A stretch of DNA of 20,685 nt from a virus. Below are positions 1 through 11,396 of this stretch, in pieces. Location of the stretch: positions 1-20,685 of IMG/VR virus record IMGVR_UViG_3300008117_000371, one strand, 5' to 3'. The notes under the pieces were generated by a model. That model was not told the DNA's origin. It saw only the letters and a list, made by a program, of their open reading frames with translations, and ran no database searches. Position 1 is the stretch's first letter. Every line of letters begins with the position of its first letter. The position numbers and the translations under genes were made by a program.

Positions 1-81
1 ATTACAAGGTCGTGATAGTGTACAATGTGTTACAACAACAAAATCATTTTTGCCGTTAGGCATATTTTATAACATTACCTA

Positions 82-107
82 AACAAAAGGTGAATTTACC
101 TTTTGTT
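82..107. repeat. Perfect inverted repeat (10-bp arms)
   Basis: AACAAAAGGT (82-91) and ACCTTTTGTT (98-107) are perfect complements around a 6-nt centre. The right arm runs into the TGTTA element at 104-108. It is one of several interval palindromes in the array. Confidence 0.8.
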
Positions 108-147
108 ATGAATTGTCCCGAAAATAGTGTAATTAGTGTTATTAAAA

Positions 148-160
148 TGGGATATTCCCA
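148..160. repeat. Small palindrome TGGGA-tat-TCCCA
   Basis: TGGGA (148-152) and TCCCA (156-160) flank a 3-nt centre. The interval is bounded by TGTTATT (137-143) and its complement AATAACA (175-181), so both inner and outer parts are symmetric. Confidence 0.6.
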
Positions 161-254
161 AAATTACATCCTTAAATAACATTACTCACACAAATTTAGT
201 TCACCAATAGTGTAACATGTGTTATGAACTACCGTTTGTTTTTTGTTCATGTTG

Positions 255-300
255 TGTTACAAAACCAAGACCTGGATTTATTCATTCATTGTTTGTAACA
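255..300. repeat. Inverted repeat bounding one array interval
   Basis: TGTTACAAA (255-263) and TTTGTAACA (292-300) are perfect 9-bp complements at the two ends of one roughly 40-bp interval. The right arm also serves as the left arm of the next, longer hairpin at 293-336. Confidence 0.7.
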
Positions 301-336
301 TAAGATACACCAAAACCGGTGTATGTTGTGTTACAA
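293..336. repeat. Long imperfect hairpin (19-bp arms)
   Basis: Positions 293-311 pair with 318-336 around the 6-nt centre aaaacc. There is one mismatch (304/325) and one G-T pair (301/328). The core arms are ATACACC (305-311) and GGTGTAT (318-324), and the outer arms are TGTAACA and TGTTACA. It is the longest arm pair in the array. The 13-mer GTAACATAAGATA at 295-307 recurs at 371-383. Confidence 0.75.
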
Positions 337-364
337 TTATTTATCACATTCCTATATCACCATA

Positions 365-425
365 TGTTATGTAACATAAGATAAAACAAACAAACGAACT
401 TTAGTTTGTTTGTTGTTACATAACA
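365..425. repeat. Bulged hairpin between two TGTTA-N2-TAACA pairs
   Basis: AACAAACAAAC (385-395) pairs perfectly with GTTTGTTTGTT (404-414). Outside it, TGTTATGTAACA (365-376) is the complement of TGTTACATAACA (414-425). Eight unpaired bases (377-384) lie on the left side only, so the two arm pairs share position 414 and cannot both form fully. Confidence 0.65.
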
Positions 426-436
426 CAAAACATTTT

Positions 437-470
437 TAACGATAAATAAACCTTTGTTTATTTGTTGTTA
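437..470. repeat. Hairpin with 15-bp arms and 4-nt loop
   Basis: Positions 437-451 pair with 456-470 with two G-T pairs and no mismatch; the loop is 452-455. The inner core is AAATAAAC/GTTTATTT and the outer ends are TAAC/GTTA. The right arm ends in an array element (466-470). Confidence 0.7.
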
Positions 471-484
471 TACTTTATCACATA

Positions 485-543
485 GAACCTAGTTCGTAAT
501 GTGTTGTAACATTACATGAACATACATTGCCATAGGCATTGTA
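485..543. repeat. Cluster of three small palindromes at the array end
   Basis: Three dyads lie in a row. GAAC-cta-GTTC is at 485-495. GTAATGT (496-502) pairs with ACATTAC (509-515). TACATTGCC (523-531) pairs with GGCATTGTA (535-543) with one mismatch. The TGCC-ata-GGCA core of the last resembles TGCC-gtta-GGCA at 51-62 near the other end of the array. Confidence 0.55.
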
Positions 544-658
544 TTACAATGTGTTATGTAACATTAGTTAAAGTAGTAATGGATTGTTTACGGCCATAGC
601 AACAAGGGGGAGGGTACTTTCCGAACGACGGATCAGCACCGGCGGATGGGGGGTAATG

Positions 659-1096: not shown

Positions 1097-1104
1097 TATA
1101 TTTG
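1097..1104 (+). promoter_or_regulatory. Possible Bacteroidota-type -7 box
   Basis: TATATTTG matches the TAnnTTTG consensus of the Bacteroidota primary sigma factor and lies 27 bp before the first start codon. No well-spaced -33 TTG/TTTG element was found: the nearest, TTTTG at 1078-1082, is too close. The call is therefore weak. Confidence 0.3.
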
Positions 1105-1131: not shown

Positions 1132-1611
1132 ATGCCCAAGTACCAAAGACACCGTGAGTTGATGGACCCCGATACGGGGGAGGTGGTTCTCTCGGATGAG
1201 AGGATTTTACTGATTCCTACCTCTGATTTTGACAGAGCGAGGTTTGTCAAGCTGTTTTACCCTGCCGTGCCGGTTTTAGCTCGCTGTAAGCCCTTGGAAT
1301 TCATTTTGGGTATGTACGCCTTGTCTTGCCTAAAGAATGGCACTGTGAGCCTTAAAATGAGTTTTGAGGGGTATTCCCTGTGGTGCGATGGTTTGGGTGT
1401 TCCAAGGAAGGACAAGTCCTCCTATTACCGGGCATTGAGGGGTTTGGTGGACTTGGGCTTTGTGGTACGTGGGGAGGATGGGGACATGGAGATCAACTAC
1501 GACATGGCTTTTGTGGGAAACCGGATGAAAGTGTTAAAAGCTGCTGAATCCATGAAACGAAAGACCGACCGAATTGTTAAGTTGGAAGAAGGTAAACAAG
1601 AAGAGCTATGA
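1132..1611 (+). CDS. Winged-helix protein, RepL-like replication initiator candidate
   Basis: The 159-residue protein has an N-terminal DPDTGEVV segment (12-19). A helical part follows (about 36-70), then a likely helix-turn-helix around 76-108 (FEGYSLWCDGLGVPRKDKSS, then YYRALRGLVDLGF). The wing-like strand VVRGEDGDMEINYDMAFVGNR lies at about 111-131, and the tail is basic and charged. This order, with a Y/N-rich strand followed by a G-N-R segment, resembles plasmid RepL-type winged-helix initiators (PF05732); that is recognition by eye only. A phage transcription regulator is the main alternative. The gene sits directly after the repeat arrays, where an initiator often lies beside its iterons. 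Its stop overlaps the next start (ATGA, 1608-1611), so the two are probably translationally coupled. ATG at 1132 has no Shine-Dalgarno sequence. Confidence 0.5.
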   Translation: MPKYQRHRELMDPDTGEVVLSDERILLIPTSDFDRARFVKLFYPAVPVLARCKPLEFILGMYALSCLKNGTVSLKMSFEGYSLWCDGLGVPRKDKSSYYRALRGLVDLGFVVRGEDGDMEINYDMAFVGNRMKVLKAAESMKRKTDRIVKLEEGKQEEL

Positions 1612-10019: not shown

Positions 10020-11396
10020 ATGGCTTACATTAATACAGGCAATCCAAGCAACAATGCTCCTGGCGTTATCCAAACCGGTAACGTAAACGGGCAATATGTT
10101 TTCGGGGGCATTCAAAAACCCGACTTCAGCGACTACATCACGTATCGCTTCCCTCAGTACACCATCACAACCCTCTTGGGCCGTATCGGTCGTAAGAACC
10201 CCGTTGTTGGCAACGACTTCTTCAGCTGGTTTGAGAAGGGCAAGTTCCGTCAATCGGTTACCACCACGACTGCTCCAGTAGGTGCTTCTGGTGACTCAAC
10301 CGGTACCGTGACCGTTCCATCCGGAACTCAAGCGTCCTTCTTGGTCGGTGACGTTATCCGCTTTGAAAACGATGTTTATGCCACCATCACTGGTTTAACT
10401 GGTGCCGGAGGTAATGGCGCATCCGGAACGCTAAACATTGTATCTCTTGGGGCCACCTTTGGTTCAAGCATCGCAACTAATGGAATTAAGTTTGCTCACC
10501 TGTACAACCTGCAACAGGAGTATTCCGACAGCCCATCCGGTCGTGTATGGCAGGAAAGCCAAGTGAATGAGTACATGGGTATCATGCGTCGTTCTGTGGT
10601 CTGTTCCACTACTCAAAGTTCTAACCTCAAGTACGTAAAGAAGTCTGACAGCGAGTGGTCTTACTACTACATCAACGAGATGGAGACCATGCAAGAGATG
10701 GCCATGGACCGCGAGATGTACATCTTGGCAGCCAAGGCTAGCACTACCAGCACCACAAACAACCTTCTTTCTGGAAGCACTCGTTTGGGAGGTAACGGTA
10801 TCTTGCAGCGTGTGATCACCAGCGGTGTTGTAGGAACCTACTCCTCTGCTATTGCCGAGACCGACTTGGCCGAGCAAGTTCGCTTGATGTGCTTGAACAG
10901 CAACGCAACCGAGTTCACCGTGCTTTGCGGTAGCTCTGCCTATGCTGACGCTCAGTTCGCACTCCGCGACTACACCTTGAACGGTGGCATCAGCTTCGGC
11001 GTGTTCTCTGGCGATGGCATCATGACCGGTTTGAACATCACCAAGTACAAGTTCATGGACAAAATCTTGAACTTCGTTCTGTACTACCCATTCGCCAACG
11101 AGGCTCTGTTCCCTGCTCCTGCCACTTCCGGCATCAACTGGGATAAAGCCATGTTGTTCTTGAACATGGGTACCGACGATCGTGGCAACCCGCTCATCAA
11201 CTTGCGCTATAAGCAAGACCTGTTGGGCCAAAGCCTTGAGTTCCGCCGTACTGTCCAGGAAGGTATCACCTCTCCAGAAGCCGGTGCCGGAGCCTCTCGT
11301 TCTAACGGTAAAGATGGATTCACGGTAGACTTCTACTCTTCCATCGGTGTTGAATTGCGCGCAGCCAACAACCACGGTTTGTTGTACGCAGCGTAA
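10020..11396 (+). CDS. Major capsid protein (HK97-fold, inferred)
   Basis: The 458-residue protein follows the scaffold and precedes a strong terminator, the usual place of the capsid gene. It shows a mixed alpha/beta pattern with an N-terminal arm (about 1-45) and a long central helix-rich region with YYYINEMETMQEMAMDREMY (about 215-234). A late beta part includes WDKAMLFLNMG and GFTVDFYSSIGVELRAANNH. A Gly/Thr/Ser-rich beta segment at about 80-156 looks like an insertion or extended loop, which could sit on the capsid surface. The start follows a long A-rich leader (AAATAAACAAAAAAA), typical of highly translated Bacteroidota genes. Codon use looks biased to C-ending codons, consistent with high expression. 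HK97 fold is expected for the order but not demonstrable by eye. Confidence 0.8.
   Translation: MAYINTGNPSNNAPGVIQTGNVNGQYVFGGIQKPDFSDYITYRFPQYTITTLLGRIGRKNPVVGNDFFSWFEKGKFRQSVTTTTAPVGASGDSTGTVTVPSGTQASFLVGDVIRFENDVYATITGLTGAGGNGASGTLNIVSLGATFGSSIATNGIKFAHLYNLQQEYSDSPSGRVWQESQVNEYMGIMRRSVVCSTTQSSNLKYVKKSDSEWSYYYINEMETMQEMAMDREMYILAAKASTTSTTNNLLSGSTRLGGNGILQRVITSGVVGTYSSAIAETDLAEQVRLMCLNSNATEFTVLCGSSAYADAQFALRDYTLNGGISFGVFSGDGIMTGLNITKYKFMDKILNFVLYYPFANEALFPAPATSGINWDKAMLFLNMGTDDRGNPLINLRYKQDLLGQSLEFRRTVQEGITSPEAGAGASRSNGKDGFTVDFYSSIGVELRAANNHGLLYAA

Follow-up and report, generated by a model that had tools for sequence, protein, structure and literature searches.

Introduction

The F plasmid centromere sopC consists of twelve 43-bp repeats (PMC9178275), and partition of pSK1 involves Par, a single helix-turn-helix (HTH) protein that has a long middle segment and works with no ATPase (PMC11500499). 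Mycobacteriophage stoperators are scattered along the genome (PMC9283540). RepL has been placed among the rolling-circle plasmids of the pSN2 family (PMC5703833), and repL-bearing Crassvirales phage-plasmids have been reported (PMC10136315, PMC11844821, PMC11652158), as has a plasmid lifestyle for Crassvirales (PMC11844821, PMC11652158), with two repL copies in p-crAssphage (PMC10136315). The long persistence of crAss-like phages without obvious lysogeny is a standing question, and one proposal, made for one of these phages, is a phage-plasmid state. Here, we analyzed an array of TGTTA half-sites at one end of a crAss-like phage contig. The author of a preliminary description of this DNA knew of no described phage element with this layout, but sopC of the F plasmid has a comparable one.

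Results

The window and its relatives

The window (the whole stretch of DNA that was analyzed, 20,685 bases) is the full IMG/VR record IMGVR_UViG_3300008117_000371, which is classed as linear and is probably a fragment. Its source group is the crAss-like phages. No close DNA match to the window was found among phage records. In PHROG, its terminase matches phrog_6681 (E 2e-49) and its portal matches phrog_6547 (E 3e-64), and the terminase shares approximately 20–24% identity with its counterparts in Crassvirales, for example cr10_1 and Azobacteroides phage ProJPt-Bp1. A search with the terminase yielded 29 related loci; these relatives are metagenomic virus contigs that are distant from named Crassvirales. 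Clade B includes L006, L015, L024, L029 and L016, and clade A includes L007, L008, L011, L012, L013, L025 and L021. L022 (63% in the terminase) has different genes upstream of its terminase and is therefore uninformative on the presence of the array. We take the host to belong to the Bacteroidota, going by the phage group and a TAnnTTTG −7 box before the gene at 1132–1611.

Several other genes were noted in these phages. L034 (G001) encodes a phage sigma factor at 10626–11216, in which Pfam recognizes regions 2 (E 9e-14) and 4 (E 5e-11), and G001 also encodes a DnaB helicase, a Rad52-like annealing protein and a C5 cytosine methylase. One early-region protein of G002 (L038, L040 or L041) matches the Thoeris anti-defence Tad2-like domain (E 2e-22).

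A regularly spaced array of TGTTA half-sites

The array covers positions 28–563 of the window, its left side being cut by the contig end. The preliminary description reported 18 TGTTA/TAACA half-sites in 14 clusters, spaced 33–49 bp apart, with a single extra site in the following 560 bp. All of these were recovered where it had placed them, with a mean cluster spacing of 40.6 bp (sd 5.3) and the extra site at 911. Its start of the array at base 1 is merely the contig end, as L006 extends leftward with further sites. The expected count of 2–3 sites was also too low, since dinucleotide-preserving shuffles of the same 565 bases (n = 500) contained 6.8 sites on average and 15 at most, vs 18 observed; the excess itself holds. 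No other pentamer is as concentrated in the region, relative to the rest of the window, as TGTTA (18 vs 41, hypergeometric 1e-14), and the spacing is highly regular (CV 0.13 vs 0.57 for random placement, p = 5e-5). The array has a GC content of 28%.

The spacing had been likened to nearly four helical turns, but no helical period is shared, with relatives spaced at approximately 49 or 56 bp. Helical phasing was rejected on a Rayleigh-type scan, in which the best period differed in each relative. When the window is compared with L006, 0 of 82 aligned core bases are substituted, vs 44 of approximately 435 elsewhere in the array (Fisher p = 3.5e-4); judged by this alignment, the array cores are under constraint.

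Some of the half-sites are paired. A divergent pair (TAACA-N2-TGTTA) is found at 213–224, with its first half missing in L006, and head-to-head pairs are found at 365–376 (TGTTATGTAACA), 414–425 (TGTTACATAACA) and 552–563 (TGTTATGTAACA again, at the right end of the array). Perfect hairpins are present in two spacers, at 82–107 (stem 10, loop 6) and 385–414 (stem 11, loop 8; present in L006 too). Spacer hairpins were rejected as a general principle: they are strong in the window, L006 and L015 and absent in L021 and L024.

The full element is approximately 21 bp long and bipartite, with TKTA-N5-TGTTAYR followed by an A-rich stretch (approximately TKTA-N5-TGTTAYRAAA). The TKTA box, which begins 9 bp upstream of TGTTA, was missed in the preliminary description; the preference it noted after TGTTA (C/T, then A/G) is real. 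These flanks are common to clade B arrays, clade A arrays and the sites within clade A genes (profile correlations 0.55–0.61, p = 0.0005), and the elements include head-to-head pairs of the form TGTTA-N2-TAACA or TGTT-N2-AACA. The upstream box looks like the core repeated directly in degenerate form, so that one element may present two successive major grooves to a dimer. The extended motif was not found elsewhere in the records and is confined to the array locus; for this reason, and because repL has its own −7 box, we rejected the array as a set of promoters. We also searched viral contigs for three TGTGTTAY in a row, and outside the phage group the inspected matches, among those listed, were mostly repeats in coding sequence.

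Conservation of the array in two clades

One refuting case named in the preliminary description was relatives with the flanking genes but without the array. Within the phage group we found the opposite: the array is kept, and it is present in relatives wherever the divergent junction is covered. Clade B arrays contain 6–22 sites over approximately 0.2–0.6 kb, and clade A arrays contain up to 66 sites over 2.4 kb. The main spacings across arrays are 33–59 bp. In L021, 13 successive sites stand 40–52 bp apart, with 11/12 intervals at 47–52 bp, and 12 of these sites have the same orientation. The peak in site density is unique in each of three long records (61.8, 71.4 and 53.7 kb) and coincides with the switch from leftward to rightward genes.

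In clade A, the sites do not stop at the first leftward (divergent) gene but run on across its coding sequence. Four of these genes contain 15–17 sites within the reading frame, vs 5.6–7.7 in synonymous codon shuffles (n = 2000, p = 0.0005), with the observed counts above every shuffle. This excess is therefore direct evidence of selection on the nucleic-acid sequence, beyond selection on the protein alone. There was no excess over synonymous shuffles in the clade B divergent genes, repL or terL. A second repeated palindrome, AGTATACTATAGTAGACTTT, was observed in clade A only, where it is close to early promoters and within the left portion of the array (L007 at approximately 3720, 4003, 4163, 5544 and 5602; L021 at 984 and 1273; L059 at approximately 1273, 1463 and 1610).

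A divergent gene encoding a predicted HTH protein

In relatives, the divergent gene is directly left of the array, which places it outside the left end of the window (it is at 76–951 in L003 and 4377–5204 in L007), and its product is 269–304 aa long. Structural models for both clades (pLDDT 73 for clade B and 57 for clade A) contain helices with an HTH-like pair, followed by a linker that is charged or of low complexity and, at the C terminus, a strand-helix part. This predicted order is as in P1 ParB (helical HTH region, charged linker, strands plus helix). The top structural matches in the PDB for the clade B model are the DNA-binding domains of Spo0J (Z 7.0), ParB (6.8), Noc (6.5) and KorB (5.3), although, per the tool's own warning, Z below 8 (or below approximately 13 for helical bundles) may reflect a common helical arrangement. 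P1 ParB is also the first-ranked Foldseek match for this model, at an E value (0.24) that a common helical arrangement may likewise produce. No ParB match was obtained for the clade A model. Going by the clade B model, the predicted fold of the divergent protein weakly resembles ParB, Spo0J, Noc and KorB. In a viral structure library, the best match was a phage "chromosome partitioning protein" (E 0.016), which was rejected as it superposed poorly.

The clade A and clade B proteins show a weak match to each other by hhalign (p = 0.004), colinear over the N-terminal HTH region only. Pfam and PHROGs gave only chance-level matches to the divergent proteins, and a PDB sequence search with the divergent and RepL-like proteins gave nothing significant. 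Across eight records, all incomplete or possibly so, there was no match to the ParB N-terminal CTPase domain (PF02195) and, for ParA, no PF13614 match over the cut-off and no PF01656 match. Both clades keep GATAGTGATAGTGA, exactly or nearly so, just past the 3′ end of the divergent gene (L007 at approximately 4222, L003 at approximately 5 and L029 at approximately 4146).

An origin-like block, a hairpin region and a RepL-like gene

An origin-like block follows the array at 577–725 of the window. On the plus strand, it includes TAATGGATTGTTTA (577–590), which is the invariant right border of the array, two G6 runs (GGGGGAGGG at 607–615 and GATGGGGGGTAATG at 645–658) and AAATTTACGC (710–719). 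The relatives examined have TAATGGATTGTTTA right of the array and a G-run approximately 30 bp on, and clade B has a second G-run at approximately 68–72. A pattern scan identified the same border on the reverse strand of L201 (approximately 135–170), which is part of a 64-kb record from an otherwise unrelated phage with no detectable terminase match. In L201, GATGGGGGGTGATG (the counterpart of the second G-run) and AAATTTACGC are at matching offsets, and approximately 100 bp separate the block from a gene whose C-terminal half is RepL-like (PF05732 E 0.007). The TGTTA array is absent from L201. As the block is found there beside a RepL-like gene without the array, the array is a module separable from the origin-like block. 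We infer that this block is part of a RepL origin.

Between the origin-like block and repL, a series of hairpins extends over 719–1000 on the plus strand (folding z = −5.6), and an Rfam search gave no match (best E 0.42, to an implausible lncRNA). A counterpart row of hairpins is found at 2425–2620 of L021 (z −5.0), and the row is partly near-identical in L021 and L029, which are from different clades.

The gene at 1132–1611 (plus strand, 159 aa) encodes a RepL-like protein, for which initiation of replication is predicted. No direct PF05732 match was found in the window or in the records of five relatives, even at E 10, or by hmmscan. The assignment was instead made through more distant comparisons, as follows. 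First, the L016 relative of this product matched six plasmids by tblastn (approximately 90% coverage, E 0.02–1), including ones of 3.4 kb and 5 kb, and one matched protein is annotated as RepL. Second, 4 of the 6 plasmid proteins match PF05732, one over the cut-off. Third, a profile–profile comparison with the phage family (hhalign) gave 97.6% (E 4e-12). The gene is kept in both clades with 40–66% identity. RepL was not found in six named Crassvirales records, a set that contains no positive control.

The Bacteroidota-type −7 box has the consensus TAnnTTTG, and we take TATATTTG at 1097–1104 (plus strand), which is before repL and is conserved, to be such a box. Before this promoter, two GTGG..CCAC operator-like palindromes (copies of GTGGYATGTGGTGCCACT) can be read at 1028–1066 on the plus strand and are a possible operator of repL. 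Relatives have two GTGG..CCAC palindromes with other letters in the same place before the repL promoter.

Discussion

A proposed plasmid-type locus

Taken in order, the divergent HTH gene, array, origin-like block, hairpin region and repL read as a plasmid-type locus. We consider the array to be a cis-acting centromere- or operator-like site within a plasmid-type locus for replication and maintenance; the HTH protein probably binds it, and its role would be partition or copy control together with autoregulation. We put the probability of this reading at roughly 0.5. It is supported by cores that are fixed while spacers drift, by the same motif in both clades, by the ParB-family chains that top the structural matches and by the RepL-like neighbour. 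Counting against it, the structural matches may reflect a common helical arrangement, the clade A model has no ParB match, neither ParA nor a ParB CTPase domain was found in the eight records, and the clade A and clade B proteins barely match in sequence even though their motif is the same. The preliminary description proposed an initiator origin, a centromere or a regulatory hub for a cooperative protein. As a general class this is supported by the RepL-like gene, the origin-like block, the HTH neighbour and the unique site at the divergent junction.

In the mechanism we propose, the divergent HTH protein is the putative binder and would probably bind each 21-bp bipartite element. A row of bound copies would form a higher-order nucleoprotein complex beside the RepL origin. 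This complex would switch off the promoter of the divergent gene itself and would hold sister genomes or set them apart (partition or copy control), comparable to SopB on sopC and Par on pSK1. The RepL-like product of 1132–1611 is not the best candidate for array binding, because a relative of the origin-like block exists without the array.

Because a real, conserved array adjoins a plasmid-style replication gene, crAss-like phages of this group are probably maintained partly in the style of a plasmid in the cell. More tentatively, a centromere-type array of up to 66 sites in and around its own binder's gene, without ParA or a ParB CTPase and beside a RepL origin, might represent a new kind of partition or copy control, a suggestion that we ourselves regard with some doubt. 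If true, it implies a phage-plasmid life style for an environmental crAss-like group. Crass-like phages with a plasmid-type replication gene now include ones in which the RepL profile finds nothing, and the array, HTH gene, origin-like block and RepL-like gene make up a compact, clonable locus for direct tests of plasmid maintenance.

Alternative readings of the array

Theta plasmid iterons are approximately 22 bp, and the 40–56 bp spacing seen here is unlike them. We consider it unlikely that the array is an iteron-type origin, at which the RepL-like protein would bind the array and open adjacent AT-rich DNA. Direct repeats at approximately 17–22 bp next to a rep gene, as expected of iterons, were not found, with spacings of 33–59 bp and the array 570 bp from repL. 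The sites also reach 1–2 kb from repL, through the divergent gene, and L201 has the origin-like block beside RepL without the array. On the other hand, the RepL-like gene is conserved in both clades, like the motif, the array is low in GC, and P1 RepL replication requires an AT-rich region (PMC9948254). Mapping the origin by GC skew, as the preliminary description suggested, does not lead to the array either: the cumulative minimum is at approximately 21 kb in G001 and approximately 8–11 kb in G002 (flipped), which is inside leftward genes and approximately 10–13 kb left of the array.

It is similarly improbable that the array is a purely transcriptional repressor/anti-repressor hub, i.e., local stoperators over divergent promoters with no role in replication or partition. 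The array is at the junction of divergent transcription and adjoins the HTH protein, clade A sites are in the 5′ region of the divergent gene, and the sigma-factor gene shows that there is transcriptional control in the phage. However, 14–66 regularly spaced sites are more than one or two promoters need, the −7 box of the repL/late promoter is approximately 530 bp right of the array, and the sites are at one place only, unlike stoperators.

A site for a host nucleoid or initiator protein (DnaA-like or IHF/HU-like), acting as an origin enhancer, seems very unlikely. While the motif is kept across clades whose adjacent proteins differ, and its flanks are AT-rich, the motif is long, specific and bipartite and also occurs within one phage gene, suggesting that its partner is phage-specific, and there is no close match to the DnaA box (TTATCCACA). 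Chance or an artefact of AT-richness, for which only the 28% GC of the region could speak, is refuted by the shuffles, regular spacing, core constraint, conservation and synonymous-shuffle excess, and we give it practically no weight.

Comparison with known systems

The centromere- or operator-like reading can be set against the described systems. Like stoperators, the array offers many asymmetric sites for one (candidate) protein, but all of them are at one locus rather than dispersed. Like theta plasmid iteron origins, it has many initiator-type sites in AT-rich DNA beside a rep gene, but with approximately double the spacing, mixed orientation and an array separable from the RepL-linked block. 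With Carjivirus communis (p-crAssphage) and the other repL-bearing Crassvirales, it shares a crAss-like phage with repL; unlike theirs, the phage RepL here is missed by direct PF05732 search, and the array is undescribed in the sources cited for them.

Like sopC (parS_F) with SopB, the locus has a tandem array beside an HTH gene, with a period of approximately 43 bp in sopC and mostly 33–52 bp here. However, the units of sopC are identical to one another, lie in tandem and include a palindrome, whereas here only the bipartite element recurs and the spacers are unrelated; the phage array overlaps a gene in clade A; and the SopA/ParA and ParB CTPase domain of sopABC-type systems were not found in the eight records. 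As in ParABS, an array of specific sites is near the gene for its candidate binding protein, but the negative result for the CTPase domain keeps us from classing the locus as ParABS. In pSK1 par, repeats are upstream of the gene and the Par C terminus is disordered, unlike the clade A and clade B proteins, which end in a predicted strand-helix region. As far as the models go, the architecture and position of the phage protein would fit a single-protein system of this kind, with an HTH protein that has a long middle segment beside an array and no ATPase.
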